A DNA stretch of 57,757 nt from Blastococcus sp. (GTDB lineage Bacteria > Actinomycetota > Actinomycetes > Mycobacteriales > Geodermatophilaceae), in the NCBI GenBank assembly GCA_025465355.1, contig JAODNN010000086.1, positions 1 to 57,757 on the forward strand. The letters are read 5' to 3'. Position 1 is the first letter of the stretch; every line of letters starts with the position of its first letter. This document shows positions 643-34,439 of this stretch, in pieces. A program made the position numbers and the translations under genes. The notes below the pieces were generated by a model, which did not search any database, was not told where the DNA came from, and saw only the letters and a program-made list of their open reading frames with translations.

Positions 643-2094
643 TCAGAGATCCGAGCGCGCCTCCACCCGGCCCTCCGCCACGGCGTCCGCCAGCTCACCG
701 TGGTCGTGCTCGGTGACACGGGCGTACTCCTCGCCGAAGTCCGCGAGCGCGTTCTCGAACGCGGGGGAGGAGCCGAGGTATCCGGCGATGGCGATGCGGT
801 CGCCGGAGCGGGCGTGGGCCCGGGCGAGGCACCAAGCGCAGACTTCGCCGTAGATCCGCAGCCCCTCCGGGCGCAGGTCGGCGACCTCGAGCGAGCCCTT
901 CCAGTCCCGCAGTTGCCGGACGTAGAAGTCGCGCTGTACGCCGTCGATCCCGGTCGTGCGCTGCCAGCCGAGGAAGACGTCGCTGGCCTGTTGCATCAGC
1001 CGCTGCCCGGCAACCACCCGCTGGCCCTCGTTCGTGTACCGGCTCCGGCCGACGAACTCCGCGTGCACCGACGGCGAGGCCTCCTTCACCTGCAGGAGCA
1101 GCGGGTCGTCGTCGTCGCGGCCCACGAGCAGCAGGACCCAGCACCGCGTCCCCACGCTGCCCACGCCGACGACCTTGCGGGCCAGGTCGACGCACGAGTA
1201 CCGCTCCAGCAGCATCCGGCGGTCGGACTGCAACGACGTCCGGTACTGCCGGATCAGCCCGTGGTACGCCGACTCGAGATCCTGCCCCTCGGCCCCGTGG
1301 ACGACGTCGCGCAGCGGCACGAGCAGCGGCGGTTCGGCGCGGATCCGCGGCCGACCGTCCACCACCTCGGTGAGCTTCCCGAATGCCTGCAGCGTGTCAC
1401 GGGTCCGCGCCTTCTCCAGAGCGCGCGCCAGTCTCCTGCGCGGGCCGCCGTCGAGCTGCGGAGCCAGTTGCTGCTGCAGCTCGTCGGCATCGATCCGCGA
1501 GTACCAGACGTCGATGTCCCGGGCGGCGGCGAACTGCGCCATGGCCTGCCGGTACCGCGCTCCGGCGGAAACGGCGAGGCTGCGCCGCTGCTTGCGCCCG
1601 ATGCCCTTCCCGCGGGCCGCGATCACCAGGCTGGCGACCAACCGCTTGACGTCGTGCTCGAACGGTCCGGGGAGGGTCTCGTCGAAGTCGTTGGCGTCGA
1701 ACACCAGCCGTCGCTCCGGGGAGCCGTACAGGCCGAAGTTGGAGACGTGCGCATCACCGCACATCTGCACGGTCAGCCCGGACCGCGGGGCGTCCGCGAG
1801 GTCGGCCGCCATGACCCGGGCGGCGCCGCGGAAATAGGCGAACTCGGAGTCGAGCATCCGGCCGTACCGGATGGGCGCGAGATCCGGGAGTCGGTCCTTG
1901 GCCTGCTCCTCGAGCAGGGCCAGGGCGTTCCGCGATGTCGGCGTCCAGGCGAACCCGGCGTGCGCCTGGAGTGGCGTGGTGCCCCGCAGCGCCTTCCCCG
2001 CGGCTCGTCGCTCCGCGGGTGCCCGGCGCGGTGTCGACGGGGAGGCCGTCTGCTGGGTGGGCTGGCTGGGTACGGCCTGGTCGACGGTCAACAC
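643..2094 (-). CDS. DUF2252 family protein
   Basis: The 483-residue product matches DUF2252, a family of unknown function common in actinobacteria. Two short motifs stand out: GDAHVSNFG around residue 113 and NDFDE around residue 135. They resemble the catalytic loop and metal-binding DFD/DFG of aminoglycoside-phosphotransferase-like kinases, so a small-molecule kinase fold is plausible but is my inference. The GTG at 2094 is chosen because GAGGTGA lies just upstream and because it overlaps the stop of the upstream lipoprotein gene. The TTG at 2091, giving a 4-nt TTGA overlap, is an equally good alternative. Longer open sequence upstream of 2094 is the lipoprotein gene in another frame. Confidence 0.85.
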   Translation of the reverse strand: MLTVDQAVPSQPTQQTASPSTPRRAPAERRAAGKALRGTTPLQAHAGFAWTPTSRNALALLEEQAKDRLPDLAPIRYGRMLDSEFAYFRGAARVMAADLADAPRSGLTVQMCGDAHVSNFGLYGSPERRLVFDANDFDETLPGPFEHDVKRLVASLVIAARGKGIGRKQRRSLAVSAGARYRQAMAQFAAARDIDVWYSRIDADELQQQLAPQLDGGPRRRLARALEKARTRDTLQAFGKLTEVVDGRPRIRAEPPLLVPLRDVVHGAEGQDLESAYHGLIRQYRTSLQSDRRMLLERYSCVDLARKVVGVGSVGTRCWVLLLVGRDDDDPLLLQVKEASPSVHAEFVGRSRYTNEGQRVVAGQRLMQQASDVFLGWQRTTGIDGVQRDFYVRQLRDWKGSLEVADLRPEGLRIYGEVCAWCLARAHARSGDRIAIAGYLGSSPAFENALADFGEEYARVTEHDHGELADAVAEGRVEARSDL

Positions 2095-2366
2095 GCTGAC
2101 TTCACCTCGTCCGCTAGTGCCCCGACGTCCTGGCGGAAGGCGCTGACGGCAGTGCCCACCGTCGACCACGCCTGCTCCACGGCTGCGGTTCCGTGCTGGA
2201 CGATCTGCGCGTCCCGGAGCGAGGCCAGGGGCGTGGGCAGGTCATCGCCGGGCGCACAGATGTCTCCGGCGCCGGACGTCGTCGCGGCGGTGTCGGAGGT
2301 CGGGCCCGACGAGCAGGCGGCGAGGCCCGGGCCCAGCGCCGCGACCGCGCCCTCGAATCTCCTCAT
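2088..2366 (-). CDS. Small predicted lipoprotein
   Basis: A 92-residue protein starts MRRFEGAVAALGPGLAACSSG, a short positively charged region, a hydrophobic stretch and a lipobox-like LAAC followed by Ser/Gly. Lipidation at Cys18 is likely. The mature part is acidic, Thr/Ser-rich at first and then amphipathic (LASLRDAQIVQ, VGALADEVKSAC), with no recognised domain. Its TGA overlaps the start codons of the DUF2252 gene, so the two are translationally coupled and may act together. An in-frame ATG at 2405 would add 13 basic residues but has no better ribosome binding site. Confidence 0.65.
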   Translation of the reverse strand: MRRFEGAVAALGPGLAACSSGPTSDTAATTSGAGDICAPGDDLPTPLASLRDAQIVQHGTAAVEQAWSTVGTAVSAFRQDVGALADEVKSAC

Positions 2367-25749: not shown

Positions 25750-26754
25750 TCAGCCGGTGACCGCAGACCGATCGCGCGCGGCTGCGTCGAGGCGCTCGCG
25801 CTGGGGCACCACGGTGTATCTGGGGTCCTTGGTGGAGGCGACGCCGGCCTCGAAGACCCCGAAACGCTGCAGAGCGCTACCGCCGAGCAGTGCGAGCCCG
25901 GACGCGGCGGCGCCTGCCCTGCTGCGGCCCGCGACGAGCACGGTTCCGGCCAGCCCGGCGAGAGTGAGCAGTTCAGCGCCACGCCTACGCCGGCCCGCGG
26001 CCCCCTGGTGGTAGACCTCCCGGATCAGTCCCATCCGTTGCTCCATCAGCCGTGAGGCCACGAGTTCACCGGTCGCCCCGAGGGCCGCGAAGCGCCGCGC
26101 GGGAGCGGCTTCGAGCACCGGAGCGGCGAGCATGCCGAACCCGCCACCGCTGGCCGCCGCGGAGCCGGCGAACACGAAGGGGAGTTCGGCGCGAACCTCC
26201 TGCCAGCCGGGCACGGCCGTATGGGACAGCAGCGCCGCCGTGTACGTGGCGACACCCGGTGCGGTGGCGGCCGACGCCAGGCCGAGACCCCGGGAGACGG
26301 CGCGCAGCAGCCGGGCCGGCCAGGACGACCGCCACCGGACCGGGACCATTTCCCAGATCGCCGCCGCGCCCACACCCGGGCCGAAGGCGGAGAGGATCCA
26401 GGTCCCGACGCTCATCGGCGACGTCGGCTTGGCCACCCGCAGCATGTGATGGAACCGCTCCGGCCGGCCGAGGTCGGCGACGAGCAGCACGAGGCTGGCG
26501 AGCAACGCGCCGAGAGACCCCAGCCAGCAGGCGCGGCGGAGTCGCGCCGCACCCGTGAGGTCCGCGCCCGCCGCGATGACGGCCGTCCCGGCGGCCAGGC
26601 CGCCGGTGAACAGGTAGGCGGCGACCTTCCACTCCCACACCGGAGTCTTGAGTACCGGCCGGCCGTAGTAGCTGGCGACGTCACCCGGCGGTTGTCCGGC
26701 CACCTCCGCGACGGCCCGCCGCGGTCCGTGGGCCGGCGAGTGGTCGCCGTTCAC
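25750..26754 (-). CDS. nrfD: NrfD/PsrC-type membrane subunit of formate dehydrogenase
   Basis: A 334-residue integral membrane protein with about eight helices and the NrfD/PsrC pattern (KVAAYLFTGGLAAGTAVIAA; LLVADLGRPERFHHMLRVAKPTSPMSVG). Such subunits pass electrons from an iron-sulfur partner to the quinone pool without haem. It replaces the cytochrome b subunit (FdnI) of the E. coli enzyme. Its GTG overlaps the stop of the 4Fe-4S subunit by 4 nt (GTGA), so it is the last gene of the operon. Confidence 0.88.
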   Translation of the reverse strand: MNGDHSPAHGPRRAVAEVAGQPPGDVASYYGRPVLKTPVWEWKVAAYLFTGGLAAGTAVIAAGADLTGAARLRRACWLGSLGALLASLVLLVADLGRPERFHHMLRVAKPTSPMSVGTWILSAFGPGVGAAAIWEMVPVRWRSSWPARLLRAVSRGLGLASAATAPGVATYTAALLSHTAVPGWQEVRAELPFVFAGSAAASGGGFGMLAAPVLEAAPARRFAALGATGELVASRLMEQRMGLIREVYHQGAAGRRRRGAELLTLAGLAGTVLVAGRSRAGAAASGLALLGGSALQRFGVFEAGVASTKDPRYTVVPQRERLDAAARDRSAVTG

Positions 26755-27782
26755 CGGCGGTTACCGAACGCGGCGGAGACGAACGCCCCGATGCCGGCCA
26801 CGGCGAACGCTGCCGCCGCTGTGCCCACCCGGCGCCAGATCTCCGGCGCGAAGCGGGTGGGCACGACCGGGTCAGGCGGCAGCCCATAGACCTCGGGCTT
26901 GTCCAGCAGCAGGAACAGCGCACCGTGGCCGCCCACGCCGTCGTCCGGGTCCCGGCCGTACAGCTCGGCCTCCGCCACGCCCTGCCCGTGCAGCTCCGCC
27001 AGCCGACGGTCGGCGCGCTCCCGGAGCTCGTCGAGCTCGCCGAACTGGATCGACTGGGTCGGGCAGGCCTTCGCGCAGGCCGGCTCCAAGCCGTCGTGCA
27101 GCCGGTCGTAGCAGAGCGTGCACTTGTTCGCCCGGCCGTCGCCGGGCCGCCGGTCGATCACGCCGTACGGGCACCCGGAGACGCAATAGCCGCAGCCGTT
27201 GCAGATGTCCTGCTGCACGACGACGGTGCCGAACTCGGTCCGGAACAAGGCGCCGGTCGGGCAGACGTCCAGGCAGCCCGCGTGGGTGCAGTGCTTGCAC
27301 ACATCGGATTCCATCAACCAGCGGAAGTCGGTGCGCGCCTCCGCGCCCGTCCCGTCCCCGGGCCGGGAGAACGTCGGCATGCCCAGGTCCTGGACGGCGC
27401 CACTGCCGGGGGAGGGGAGCGGCGTCGTGCCGAGCTCGGAGCCGCCGCGAGGAGCGGCCCGCAGCCGGGGTTCCACCTGGGCGGTCATCTCGTCCGGGAG
27501 CGACCAGCCGCCTTCCTGCCCGGCCGGGCGTCGCTGCTCCACGAACGCGACGTGGCGCCACGAGTTCGCGCCGAGCATGCCCGTGTTGTCCATCGACATG
27601 CCCAGGAGGTCCAGGCCGTCCTCGGGGACGTGGTTCCACTCCTTGCAGGCCACCTCGCACGCCTTGCAGCCGATGCACACCGACGTGTCGGTGAAGAAGC
27701 CGACGCGCGGCGGGTGCTCGTCGTATCCGGAGTCCCGGGAGACGTCGTCTTCCGGGCCGAACAGCAGGTTCCTCTCGGTCAC
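26751..27782 (-). CDS. Formate dehydrogenase 4Fe-4S subunit (beta)
   Basis: The 343-residue protein carries four cysteine clusters for four [4Fe-4S] centres: CIGCKACEVAC (36-46), CKHCTHAGCLDVC, CNGCGYCVSGC and CTLC...ACAKACP. The C terminus (EIWRRVGTAAAAFAVAGIG) forms one membrane helix as in FdnH. It relays electrons from the molybdopterin subunit to the NrfD-type anchor. The GTG at 27782 follows GAGGAGGG and overlaps the stop of the catalytic subunit (GTGA). The N-terminal region between the first two clusters is longer than in a minimal ferredoxin, as usual for formate dehydrogenase beta subunits. Confidence 0.92.
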   Translation of the reverse strand: MTERNLLFGPEDDVSRDSGYDEHPPRVGFFTDTSVCIGCKACEVACKEWNHVPEDGLDLLGMSMDNTGMLGANSWRHVAFVEQRRPAGQEGGWSLPDEMTAQVEPRLRAAPRGGSELGTTPLPSPGSGAVQDLGMPTFSRPGDGTGAEARTDFRWLMESDVCKHCTHAGCLDVCPTGALFRTEFGTVVVQQDICNGCGYCVSGCPYGVIDRRPGDGRANKCTLCYDRLHDGLEPACAKACPTQSIQFGELDELRERADRRLAELHGQGVAEAELYGRDPDDGVGGHGALFLLLDKPEVYGLPPDPVVPTRFAPEIWRRVGTAAAAFAVAGIGAFVSAAFGNRR

Positions 27783-30700
27783 GGACCCTCCTCGGGTGGT
27801 TCGGTGCCGGTGGTGACCAGCTGCGTACCGGTGATGGGAGTGATGCCGGCGCGGCTGCGCAGCCGCGCCAGCAGCGCGGTCAGCTCGGCCCCGCGAGGGC
27901 GACGGCCGGGCAGGACGTCGCAGGTGGCGACCTTGCTCTCCTGGATGAGCACGTTCGGGTCGGTGACGATGCCGAGCAGGTCGTTGACCACGTCACCGGT
28001 GACCAGCCCCGTCGGGCCCCAGTGGTAGGGCAGCCACACCTGATGGATGACCCGTCCGTCGAGCCGCAGCGGGGCCATCCGGTCGGTCACGTACACCCGT
28101 GCCTCGACCGCGGCCCGGCTGGTGACGACGTGCGCCCAGCCGAGGTGGGTCAGGCCCCGGAGTCTGGCGAGCTGGGGGGAGACCTCGACGAACAGCTCGG
28201 GCTGCAGCTCCGAGAGGTAGGGCAGCAGCCGGCTCATGCCGCCGGCCGTGTGGTGCTCGGTGAGCCGGGCCGCGGTCAGCACGAACGGGAAGACGTCGGT
28301 GTTCGGCTCGGGTGGCGACGGGTCGTACGGGTTCTCGGGCCGGGGGTAGACCCGGCGGGTCGGGTTGCTCTGCTGCCCGTAGAGCGGGTTGCGGACCGGC
28401 GACTCGTGCGGCTCGTAGTGGGTCGGCAGCGGCCCGTCGATCACCCCGGCCGGCGCGAACAGCCAGGCCTTGCCGTCGGCCTGCATGATGAAGGGGTCGT
28501 CCCCGCGCAGGGCCTCCGGGCCGCGGGCGCCCTCGGGCGGGACGTAGCCGGGTGGGGTGGACACGGGGAAGTCGGGGACGTCGTTCCCGGTCCACCGCCC
28601 GCGGTCCGGATCCCACCAGACCAGCCTCTTGCGCTCGCTCCAGGGCCGGCCCCCCAGGTCGGCGGAGGCCCGGTTGTAGAGCAGCCGGCGGTTGGCCGGC
28701 CAGGTCCAACCCCACTCGGGGTCGTACGGGCCCTGCTCGACGTGCGGCTTGCGACGGGCCGCCTGGTTGACCTCGTCCTTGTAGATCCCGGAGTACTGCC
28801 AGCAGCCGCAGGCGGTGCTGCCGTCGGCGCGCAGGTCGGTGAACGTGTCCACCGTTCGCCCGGTGGCCAGGTCGATCCCGTTGATCCGCCGCAGGACGTC
28901 CTCGGGGTCCGGCTCCGCGTCGTCCCCGCTGCCCTCTGTCCGGTAGTCCCAGGCCAGCCGCTGCAAGGAAACGTCCCGGGGATCGGTCGAGTCGGCCACC
29001 CGGTCCCGGATCCGGCGGCACAGTTGGTGGAAGAACCACAGGTCGGAGCGCTGGTCGCCGATCGGCTCGGCGCCCTTCTGCCGCCACTGCACCATCCGCT
29101 GGGTCTGGGTGAAGGTGCCGGCCTTCTCCACGTGCGACGCTGCGGGGAAGAAGAAGACCTCCGTGCGGCACTGCTCCGGAGCGATCTCCCCGGTCTCGAT
29201 CTCGGGGGAGTCCTTCCAGAAGCTGGCGGTCTCGATCATCGCGAGGTCGCGGACGACGAGCCAGTCGAGGTTCGCCAGGGCCAGCCGCTGAAGCCGGCCG
29301 TTCGCTGAACCGACGGCGGGGTTCTGCCCCATGACGACGTAGCCGAACACCCGGCCGTCGATCATGTCCATGGTCGTCCGGTAGGTGCCGTGGTCACCGT
29401 TGATCCGCGGCAGCCAGCCGAAGCCGAAGTCGTTGTCGCTCGTCGCCGCGTCGCCGAAGTACTCCTTCAGCAGCGAGACGAAGTAGGCATCCGCCTCCTC
29501 CCAGTAGCCCTTCTGGGTCCGGGCGCGCACCCGGTCCAGGTAGGCCGTCAGGTCGGCCTGCCCGGCGCGGGGCATCGGGAGGTAGCCGGGCAGGAGGTCG
29601 AACAGCGTCGGGATGTCGGTCGAGCCCTGGATGTTCGCGTGACCCCGCAGGGCGTAGATCCCGCCGCCCGGCCGGCCGACGTTGCCCAGGAGCAGCTGCA
29701 CGATCGCCCCGGCGCGGATGTTCTGCGCGCCCACGGTGTGCTGGGTCCAGCCCACGCTGTAGATGAGCGCCGCGGTGCGCTCGCGGCCGGAGTTCGACGT
29801 CCAGGCCTCGCACACCTGCCGGAACTGATCCGGGGGAACGCCGCACACCCGCTCGACCATCTCCGGCGTGTAGCGGGAAAAGTGCCGCTTGAGGATCTGG
29901 AAGACGCAGCGGGAGTGCTCGAGCGACGGGTCCTGGGCGATCTCGGCCACCCCGGCGATGCGTGGGCCGCCCATGCCCGTCTCCATGGGCCCGGTCTCTC
30001 GCTGGCTGGCGCCCTCGTAGTCCCAGGTGGTGGTGTCGTAGTCCCCTGTCGCGGGGTCGTAGCCGCTGAACAGGCCGTCGAGGTCCTCGGTGTCGGCGAA
30101 CTGCTCGTTCACGAGGAACGCGGCGTTGGTGTACGCCGCGACGTACTCCCGGAAGTCCAGGTCGTTGCTGAGCACGTGGTTCACGACGCCGCCCAGGAAG
30201 GCGATGTCGGTGCCCGCCCGGATCCGGACGTACTGGTGAGCGAGGGCGCTGGTGCGGGTGAACCGGGGGTCGACGTGGACGACGCGGGCACCGCGGAGCT
30301 TGGCCTCCATCACCCACTGGAACCCGACCGGATGGGCCTCGGCCATATTCGAGCCCATGATCAGGATGAAGTCGGAGTTGACCAGGTCCTGCAGGTAGTC
30401 CGTGGCGCCGCCGCGGCCGAACGACGTCCCCAGACCGGGGACGGTGGCGGAGTGCTATATGCGGGCCTGGTTCTCGATCTGCACCGCACCCATCGCGGTC
30501 CACAGCTTCTTGAAGAGGTAGTTCTCCTCGTTGTCGGTCGTGGCGCCCCCGAGGCCGGCCAGGCCCATGGTGCGGCGCAGCACGTTGCCCTGCTCGTCCG
30601 TCTCCTGCCAGCCACGACGCCGGGCATCGAGCATCCGGTCGGCCACCATGTCCATCGCGGTGTCCAGCGGCAGGTCGGTCCACTCCGTCGCGAACGGCGC

Positions 30701-31042
30701 CCGGTATCGGACCTTCTCCTCCCGCTGCGGCCCGGTGACCAGGCTCAGGCTGGCCGACCCCTTGGGACACAGCCGGCCCCGGGAAACGGGAGAGTCCGGG
30801 TCACCTTCGATCTGGGTCACCCGTCCGTCCTGCGCGTAGACGAGTTGGGCGCAGCCCACAGCACAGTAGGGGCAGACCGATCGGGCAGGCTCGTCCGCCG
30901 TCGCCGTGCGTGCGCGCAGCTGCCGGGAGCGGGGGGACTGGGCGGCGGCGCCACGTCCCAAGCGGTCGGGACCAGTCACCTGGCGATACACAGGCCATTC
31001 CTGGAGCCAGCCGCGAAGGGTGTGGATCGGGTTGCTGTTCAT
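27779..31042 (-). CDS. fdh: Formate dehydrogenase catalytic subunit with selenocysteine encoded by TAG
   Basis: One frame of 1087 codons encodes an FDH-N-type molybdopterin formate dehydrogenase. It starts MNSNPIHTLRGW with Cys57, Cys60, Cys64 and Cys92 (CPYCAVGC...CPKG) for the [4Fe-4S] cluster. Codon 196 (30457-30455) is TAG in NQARI-stop-HSATVPGLGTSFGRG. In E. coli FdnG the same place reads NQARV-Sec-H, encoded by TGA. Homology continues without a break through AEAHPVGFQW, DPRFTRTSA, GWTQHTVGAQNIR and a long C-terminal domain. A SECIS-like hairpin follows the TAG. No twin-arginine signal is present, unlike FdnG, so the enzyme probably faces the cytoplasm. The ATG at 31042 follows GGGGG. 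It is first of three coupled genes. Confidence 0.92.
30425..30457 (-). promoter_or_regulatory. SECIS element following the TAG selenocysteine codon
   Basis: Counting the T of TAG as 1, positions 15-21 (CGTCCCC) pair with 27-33 (GGGGACG) and leave the loop GGTCT at 22-26. E. coli fdhF has the same GGUCU loop at the same 18-nt distance from its UGA, and a U at position 17 as here. The stem is 7 bp. SelB binds this loop in E. coli. The element overlaps the coding sequence, as always in bacteria. Confidence 0.85.
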
Positions 31043-32369: not shown

Positions 32370-34439
32370 ATGGCGAAGGACACCGGAACGGCGCCGGCTC
32401 CTCGGCCGGCCGCGCAGGTGCGCAACGTGGCTCTCGTGGGCCACGCGGGTGCGGGTAAGACGACGCTTGCCGAGGCGCTGCTCGTGGCCACCGGAGCCCT
32501 GCCCCGGGCCGGAAGGATCGAGGACGGCACGACCTGCCTCGACACCGAGGAGGTCGAGATCCGCCAGCAGCGCTCGGTGTCCCTCGGCGTGGCGACCGTG
32601 GAACGAGACGGCCATCGGCTGACGCTGCTCGACACCCCCGGCTCCCCGGACTTCGTCGGGGAGCTCCGCGCCGGACTGCGCGCCGCCGACGCCGCGCTGT
32701 TCGTCGTCTCCGCCGTCAACGGTGTCGACGTCACCACCGTGGCCCTGTGGGAGGAGTGCGCGGCCGTCGGCATGCCGCGGGCCGTCGTCATCACCCAGCT
32801 CGACCGCGCCCGGGCCGACGTCGAGGACGCCATCCGGCTCTGCCAGCAGTTGCTGGGGGAGGGGGTCTACCCGCTGCACCTCCTCGAGCGCGGGCCGGAC
32901 GGCGCCGTGCGGGGGCTGGTCTCCCTGCTCGAGCCCCATGTCGACGCGCCGGACGCCGACCGACTCAGGGGCGAGTTGATCGAGGGGATCATCGGCGAGA
33001 GCGAGGACGAGACGCTCATGGAGCGCTACCTCGCCGGTGACGAGCTGGCCGTCGCCGACCTCGTCAGCGATCTGGAGACGGCGGTCGCCCGTGGTCATTT
33101 CCACCCGGTCCTCTGCGTCTCGGCGCTGACCGGCGTAGGCGTGCCCGAGCTGCTCGACCTTCTCGTCTCGGCGTTCCCGTGCCCGATGGAGCACGGCTGT
33201 CCCCAGGTCAGCCGTCCCGACGGCTCCTCAGCCGCCCCGATGGCCTGCGACCCGGACGGTCCGCTCGTCGCCGAGGTCGTCAAGACCACGACCGATCCCT
33301 ACCTCGGCCGGGTCTCGCTGGTCCGCGTCTTCTCGGGCACCCTGCGCCCCGACCTGCCGATCCACGTCTCCGGGCACGGCATGACCGAACGCGGCCACCC
33401 GGATCACGACGTCGACGAGCGGCTGGCCGCGATCTCCACCCCCATGGGCGCCATCCTTCGTCCTGTGCCCGCCTGCCCGGCAGGGGACATCTGCGCCGTC
33501 GCGCGGCTGACCAGCGCGGAGACCGGCGACACGCTGTCCTCACCGGACGATCCGCGGCTCGTGCCGCCGTGGAACCTGCCCACCCCGCAGCTGCCGGTCG
33601 CCGTGGAGGCATCCTCCCGGGCCGACGAGGACCGCCTGGCCGGCGCGCTCGCCCGGCTGGTGGCCGAGGACCCGACCGTCCGGCTGGAACGCCGGGCCGA
33701 CACGGGGCAGCTGCTGCTGTGGTGCGTGGGGGAGGCCCACGCCGAGGTCCTGCTCGAGCGGCTGCGCGTGCGTCACGGCGTCGCCGTCGCGACGGTGCCG
33801 GTCCGTGTACCGATGGTGGAGACCCTCGCTGGGCCGGCACGGGTCACCGGGCGGCACGTCAAGCAGTCGGGCGGGCACGGCCAGTACGCCGTCGTCGTCG
33901 TGGAGGCCGAGCCAGGGCCACCCGGGTCGGGGATCGTCTTCGAGCAGCGGATCGTCGGCGGAACCGTCCCGAGCCAGTTCCACGGCAGTGTGGAGAAGGG
34001 GATCCGGGCCCAGGCCGAACGCGGGATCAGCGGCGACCGGCCGATCGTGGACATCCACGTCACCCTCGTCGACGGCAAGGCGCACTCGGTCGACTCCTCG
34101 GACGCGTCTTTCCAGGCTGCCGGCTCCCTGGCGCTCCGGGAGGTGGCCGCCGCGGCCGGCACGCAGGTGCTGGAACCGTGGTGCGAGGTGGACGTCGTCG
34201 TGCCGGCCGAGTACGTGGGCGCGGTGATGAGCGATCTCTCCGGACGCCGGGCCCGCGTCACCGGCAGCGACGCCGATCCCGATCGGGACCGCACCACCGT
34301 CCGTGCCGAGGTCCCGGAGGTCGAGCTGCTCAGCTATCCGGGCGTGCTGCGGTCGGTCACCCACGGCACGGGAAGCTTCACCCGGCGGCCGCTGGGCTAC
34401 GAGCCGGCCCCGCCGTCGGTGGCGGCGGTTCCCGCGTGA
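32370..34439 (+). CDS. Elongation factor G-like protein EF-G2
   Basis: A 689-residue translational GTPase like the second EF-G of actinobacteria (Rv0120c type). G1 is GHAGAGKT (24-31) and G3 is DTPG. The G4 element reads TQLD instead of NKxD, which would weaken guanine specificity. Domains II to V follow, including GGHGQYAVV, the domain IV region FEQRIVGGTVPSQFHGSVEKG and the C-terminal GVLRSVTHGTGSFTR. The main fusA would sit next to rpsL/rpsG, so this is a paralogue that may act in ribosome maintenance or stress rather than normal elongation. No strong ribosome binding site precedes the ATG. Confidence 0.88.
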   Translation: MAKDTGTAPAPRPAAQVRNVALVGHAGAGKTTLAEALLVATGALPRAGRIEDGTTCLDTEEVEIRQQRSVSLGVATVERDGHRLTLLDTPGSPDFVGELRAGLRAADAALFVVSAVNGVDVTTVALWEECAAVGMPRAVVITQLDRARADVEDAIRLCQQLLGEGVYPLHLLERGPDGAVRGLVSLLEPHVDAPDADRLRGELIEGIIGESEDETLMERYLAGDELAVADLVSDLETAVARGHFHPVLCVSALTGVGVPELLDLLVSAFPCPMEHGCPQVSRPDGSSAAPMACDPDGPLVAEVVKTTTDPYLGRVSLVRVFSGTLRPDLPIHVSGHGMTERGHPDHDVDERLAAISTPMGAILRPVPACPAGDICAVARLTSAETGDTLSSPDDPRLVPPWNLPTPQLPVAVEASSRADEDRLAGALARLVAEDPTVRLERRADTGQLLLWCVGEAHAEVLLERLRVRHGVAVATVPVRVPMVETLAGPARVTGRHVKQSGGHGQYAVVVVEAEPGPPGSGIVFEQRIVGGTVPSQFHGSVEKGIRAQAERGISGDRPIVDIHVTLVDGKAHSVDSSDASFQAAGSLALREVAAAAGTQVLEPWCEVDVVVPAEYVGAVMSDLSGRRARVTGSDADPDRDRTTVRAEVPEVELLSYPGVLRSVTHGTGSFTRRPLGYEPAPPSVAAVPA

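Follow-up and report, generated by a model that had tools for sequence, protein, structure and literature searches.

We have analysed a stretch of 57,757 nucleotides from Blastococcus sp. (here called the window), the minus strand of which carries a formate dehydrogenase gene interrupted by an in-frame TAG codon. We are very confident of an explanation built on sequence comparison, in which the gene would encode an actinobacterial selenoprotein formate dehydrogenase, the TAG would be decoded as selenocysteine (Sec) by a dedicated tRNA-Sec with a CUA anticodon, and the enzyme would have been gained horizontally from a UGA-using actinobacterium near Pseudonocardia, its gene then passing from TGA to TAG in the lineage that received it. 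In the draft genome (4.9 Mb, 195 contigs) the window corresponds to contig C150.

The formate dehydrogenase gene contains a single in-frame TAG

When TAG is translated as U, the gene for the catalytic subunit (fdh alpha, positions 27779-31042, minus strand) forms a single frame of 1123 codons with one internal stop at 30457-30455, minus strand. The original prediction that TAG alone breaks the frame, and does so at the Sec site, is therefore correct. The gene ends with TGA and probably starts at the ATG at 31042. From that start the protein has 1087 residues with Sec (codon at 30455-30457) as residue 196, the residue number that had been predicted; the computed mass is about 120.6 kDa with Cys in place of Sec, where about 118 kDa had been predicted. 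Read with U, the protein belongs to both curated families examined, scoring 1840.8 bits against NF041513 (cut-off 1400) and 928.7 bits against TIGR01553 (cut-off 814.2), each with an alignment of nearly the whole length, and it contains the Mo/FeS domains. A plain list of open reading frames cuts the gene into pieces of 230 and 859 residues, as had been foreseen for a standard gene caller.

Genes for an iron-sulfur (beta-type) subunit (26751-27782) and an NrfD-type membrane subunit (25750-26754; PF03916, 69.1 bits, cut-off 25.8) follow downstream on the same strand. The beta subunit scores 187 bits against TIGR01582, below the cut-off of 334.7, and so is not assigned to the E. coli FDH-N type. 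Since the membrane subunit is moreover NrfD-type, the complex differs from the E. coli FDH-N trimer. A gene for an EF-G2 type elongation factor is found near the operon, at 32370-34439 of the window, with no link between them shown.

The SECIS hairpin is conserved by covariation

The minus-strand letters 30460-30455 are ATA TAG, followed by CAC TCC GCC ACC GTC CCC GGT CTG GGG ACG. The predicted SECIS hairpin, in which CGTCCCC and GGGGACG pair around the loop GGTCT, occupies 30425-30443 on the minus strand, which are positions 15-33 if the T of TAG is position 1. In E. coli U17 is bulged. By contrast T17 of the window is base-paired within a continuous 7-bp helix, and the window gene further differs from E. 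coli fdhF in having UAG for UGA and ATA before the Sec codon where E. coli has GTC. The loop GGTCT at positions 22-26, its spacing from the codon and T17 itself are the same in fdhF of NC_000913, in agreement with the prediction.

Folding of the single window sequence is weak (z = -1.06, with 29 of 200 shuffles equally stable). The hairpin is borne out by covariation over 45 distinct sequences (36-mers) from 114 genes. Pairs 16-32, 17-31, 18-30, 19-29, 20-28 and 21-27 are present in all 45, and pair 15-33 in just 29. Positions 18 and 30, each the third base of a codon, covary as CG, TA, GT, GC and TG; they pair in 45/45 sequences versus a shuffle mean of 24.5, and none of 10000 shuffles, which ignore relatedness, attains 45. 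The Gly codon of the loop is GGT in 114/114 genes, compared with 10.5% among their other Gly codons.

The genome encodes a CUA tRNA-Sec and the Sec machinery

The tRNA-Sec at C164:22627-22718 has the anticodon CUA and scores 66.8 bits (Rfam cut-off 47). It is the only one of 15 tRNA-Sec matches in the genome to exceed the cut-off; the seven typed among the 14 weaker matches comprise two tRNA-Ser, two tRNA-Gly and one tRNA each for Leu, Tyr and Pro. In this draft genome no UCA tRNA-Sec was found among the match over the cut-off and these seven. Absence of a UCA tRNA-Sec is not a strict criterion for a UAG-programmed selenoprotein, as the relative G058 discussed below makes clear. Downstream of the tRNA on the same strand are selA (424.1 bits) and then selB (292.1 bits, with SelB-wing_3), and selD (385.0 bits) adjoins, pointing away. 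The original prediction had proposed a search for just these four genes, and all are present side by side; it would have been contradicted by a genome without sel genes or with tRNA-Sec of UCA anticodon only, and neither situation applies. Together with TGA at the codon in the best 80 named relatives (below), the sel genes and the CUA tRNA-Sec support its proposal that the window is an instance of UAG-Sec recoding.

The CUA tRNA-Sec would be charged with serine and then converted by SelA using selenophosphate from SelD. SelB would carry the converted tRNA to the ribosome paused at UAG, since SelB is expected to bind the SECIS hairpin, the loop of which starts 18 nt past the codon. These roles of SelA, SelB and SelD are textbook knowledge of the families. 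Elsewhere UAG would remain a stop codon, given that RF1 is present over its cut-off, some other genes seem to end with TAG, and fdh alpha ends with TGA. A rough GC-based gene caller gave 4 TAG and 26 TGA among 30 gene ends in the window, one of the four TAG ends being that of the false half of fdh alpha. Full reassignment of UAG was rejected, as RF1 is present and gene ends in the window still include TAG.

ARAGORN names the CUA tRNA-Sec tRNA-Pyl, with anticodon cta. Split reading frames and this label are both pitfalls for annotation, and the label raises the question of whether UAG is read as pyrrolysine by this tRNA. The same RNA lies upstream of selA and exceeds the cut-off for tRNA-Sec by a wide margin, while the best PylS match in the genome reaches 22.2 bits, where the cut-off is 178.15. 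Among 14 control genomes one was over that cut-off and 12 more matched weakly, like this genome. Adding the TGA found at this codon in 80/80 of the best named relatives, we consider the chance that UAG is pyrrolysine to be negligible.

UAG is the probable Sec codon in most of the family

We found a tRNA-Sec match in 109 of 112 family genomes. Apart from some two dozen other matches scoring near 50 bits, 112 loci from those 109 genomes were assigned with ARAGORN, as 102 CUA, 8 UCA and 2 tRNA-Ser. CUA tRNA-Sec is present in 101/112 genomes and nine genera. UCA tRNA-Sec was seen in eight genomes, seven of them UCA-only (genera g5, 3/4; g6, 1/1; g7, 3/4) and one, G058, with both anticodons; G071 has tRNA-Ser matches only. 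Formate dehydrogenase matches at 1e-100 were obtained in 100/112 genomes, with none in those of g5-g7. Codon and anticodon are thus in agreement, with CUA in 101 genomes and the seven UCA-only genomes confined to three genera without a formate dehydrogenase match. We suggest that the Sec codon switched from UGA to UAG in most of the family. One draft genome, G036, has two CUA tRNA-Sec loci (C25 and C168).

Among the matches listed, all 89 that span the Sec residue (80 genomes) contain TAG, and five of these also hold a TGA (G038 and G057 included). The extra TGA of L123, L125 and L128 precedes the Sec codon by about 600 nt and falls upstream of where the start is inferred. A match in G031 contains two TAG. 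Another, at G079:C12:812385-814955, has two TGA and does not span Sec; this is perhaps a decayed gene or an assembly fault. A single in-frame stop in a draft genome might be put down to a sequencing error, or to a pseudogene. Yet TAG recurs in 34/34 family genes on the tree described below as well as in the 89/89 spanning matches among those listed, the SECIS is conserved, the tRNA matches and the frame is otherwise open, so that error or decay is hardly conceivable as the source of the window TAG.

UGSC proteins were found in 54/112 family genomes, and in the 30 loci read (L182-L211) the position of U is TAG in 22 and TGC in 8. The genome of the window is not among the 54, and a separate search for UGSC in it gave no match, with its control silent. 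This absence is informative, for a draft, because the same model matches 54/112 genomes of the family. The five AhpC-TSA matches in the genome contain no stop.

The window gene has probably been transferred and recoded

We constructed a tree of 114 formate dehydrogenases by a quick IQ-TREE analysis (LG+G4, SH-aLRT, without bootstraps). It comprises 80 named relatives, the best 80 of at least 591 candidates, and 34 family genes, four repeat fetches of the same genes having been removed from 38 loci. All 80 of these best named relatives have TGA at the Sec codon, and all 34 family genes have TAG.

The TAG enzymes occupy three places on the tree, a separation that starred branches force. Of these, the main family clade has 28 TAG rows, including the second formate dehydrogenase of this genome (G000:C62). 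The window gene belongs to a clade of five from three genera (G000, G052, G092, G097 and G098) that falls inside a starred clade whose other members use TGA and come from Pseudonocardiaceae, Streptomycetaceae and Mycobacteriaceae. The third place is held by one gene of G001 (L127, G001:C11), among TGA enzymes of Nocardioides, Georgenia and others. A single clade of all TAG rows was rejected with p-AU = 2.84e-43, as was the joining of the window and main clades, a grouping chosen after the tree had been seen, with p-AU = 1.69e-08. G095 holds one more window-like fragment, 82% identical, which stops short of the Sec codon and is absent from the tree. The second formate dehydrogenase of this genome (L152) also has ATA TAG, and runs into the contig end.

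The window gene is therefore probably a xenolog, a UGA gene that was acquired and then recoded from TGA to TAG in the recipient lineage. That recoding followed transfer is suggested by the position of a TAG clade among the TGA-using enzymes of Pseudonocardia and its relatives. Acquisition of a UGA gene followed by recoding is favored because the reverse path takes more changes, and we infer transfer from a UGA user into the UAG lineage. If the gene had instead been inherited vertically, with UAG read as Sec and no recoded xenolog, its TAG and ATA would simply be those common to the family. This is very unlikely, given five rows from three genera within an otherwise TGA clade, a second copy in the same genome that groups with the main family clade, and rejection of the one-clade arrangements. 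The contig itself is not foreign, since the GcvP that it encodes reaches 90% identity with that of same-genus genomes; a foreign or contaminant contig was rejected on this basis. A plasmid search found none.

The TAG of a transferred gene might also have come by a short gene conversion from the resident TAG copy rather than by stepwise mutation. ATA and TAG occur together, point changes from TGA to TAG require a TAA or TGG intermediate, and the genome has two copies of the gene. But immediately after the TAG the SECIS letters of the window gene are donor-like (ACC GTC ... GGG ACG, where the resident copy has ACG GTG ... GGT ACC), so any conversion tract, carrying ATA TAG, would be very short. 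We regard conversion as possible, though the less probable route.

The codon before selenocysteine differs between TAG and TGA genes

The Ile codon directly 5' to the Sec codon of the window is ATA (30458-30460, minus strand), and counts over homologues tie this context to TAG. It is ATA in 34/34 TAG genes (the window gene and 33 family homologues), whereas the 80 TGA genes have ATT in 77, ATA in 3 and ATC in none. At the other Ile codons ATC makes up 98.2% in TAG and 97.7% in TGA genes. Two codons before Sec, CGT is found in 46/80 TGA genes but 1/34 TAG genes, against a background of about 5%. The rows in these counts are related sequences with three independent codon changes, and a sign test on three such changes cannot reach 0.05.

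Pairing of the base before the Sec codon with a downstream base was seen in none of the consensus folds. In the 22 UGSC loci with TAG the preceding codon is GAT (13) or GAC (9), and so a simple rule that A precedes TAG does not carry over to UGSC. The codon may act through an effect in the P site on competition with RF1 or RF2; our search of open-licence literature showed no paper on such an effect of the pre-Sec codon. The contrast of ATA and ATT opens the role of stop-codon context in Sec insertion to testing.

Relationship to known UAG-Sec systems

UAG-programmed selenoproteins in Geodermatophilus and Blastococcus are said to have been described by Mukai and colleagues in 2016. Like these, the system described here has a CUA tRNA-Sec, a TAG formate dehydrogenase and a SECIS.

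PMC10778597 and PMC5756416 cite Mukai et al. 2016. According to PMC5330540 (2017), which credits an earlier report, three Geodermatophilaceae genomes have a CUA tRNA-Sec together with TAG in formate dehydrogenase, UGSC and AhpC. UAG-Sec itself is a known phenomenon in Geodermatophilaceae, and the window gene belongs to this known kind. Unlike the reported systems, it is one of two formate dehydrogenase copies and was apparently acquired and recoded. The genome also departs from those described in PMC5330540 in lacking a UGSC match and a stop in its AhpC-TSA genes. With the UGA enzymes of Pseudonocardia, Amycolatopsis, Streptomyces and Mycobacterium, among the best 80 of at least 591 candidates, the window enzyme shares up to 75% protein identity and the same SECIS loop and spacing, while they have TGA, mostly after ATT, in place of TAG after ATA.

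We add here a survey of tRNA-Sec across the family, a xenolog that was apparently recoded, the contrast of ATA and ATT, and a relative that may use two Sec codons. In the accessible portions of the open-licence literature, including PMC5330540, PMC7609411, PMC5756416, PMC10778597 and PMC13188914, we found no earlier report of transfer with recoding, of the context shift or of a two-codon genome. Natural UAG-Sec is an example of how the meaning of a codon moves. The window gene provides a replicate, in the form of a transferred enzyme that has apparently been rewritten to the Sec codon of its host, and therefore code variation may be a barrier to transfer that selection can surmount.

A relative with two candidate Sec codons

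G058 has a UAG system, with CUA tRNA-Sec, selA and selB on C11, a TAG formate dehydrogenase and a TAG UGSC. It has in addition, at locus L120 on C17, a UCA tRNA-Sec of 81.8 bits (C17:1169-1263, minus strand). About 300 bases away is a CMD-domain gene (1579-2157, plus strand; Pfam CMD 28.2 bits, cut-off 23) with an in-frame TGA at 1870-1872. CMD matches occur in 44 of 296 genomes drawn from the phylum, G058 among them, and 22 of the 51 matches have one TGA; three CMD homologues caught by a motif have TGA at the same place. The second CMD match of G058 has no stop.

A broader proposal, which we somewhat favor, is that incoming UGA selenoprotein genes must be recoded in a UAG-Sec lineage. Formate dehydrogenase would have undergone this on at least two occasions, each time with ATA settling before Sec, suggesting a P-site context rule by which UAG readthrough is balanced against RF1. 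For G058, a UCA tRNA-Sec and a UGA selenoprotein gene would have arrived as a package, giving two Sec codons with the single SelB that was found. A search of G058 for SelB found just one, and tblastn found neither SelA nor SelB on C17.

Over long stretches, C17 at its right end shows 82-87% identity with chromosomes of the genus. This similarity argues against contamination; an assembly join may yet be involved. The predicted hairpin of the CMD gene is not exceptional in folding (z = 0.22) and has a loop other than GGTCT. The locus lies at the lower-GC end of C17, a contig that carries transposase genes.
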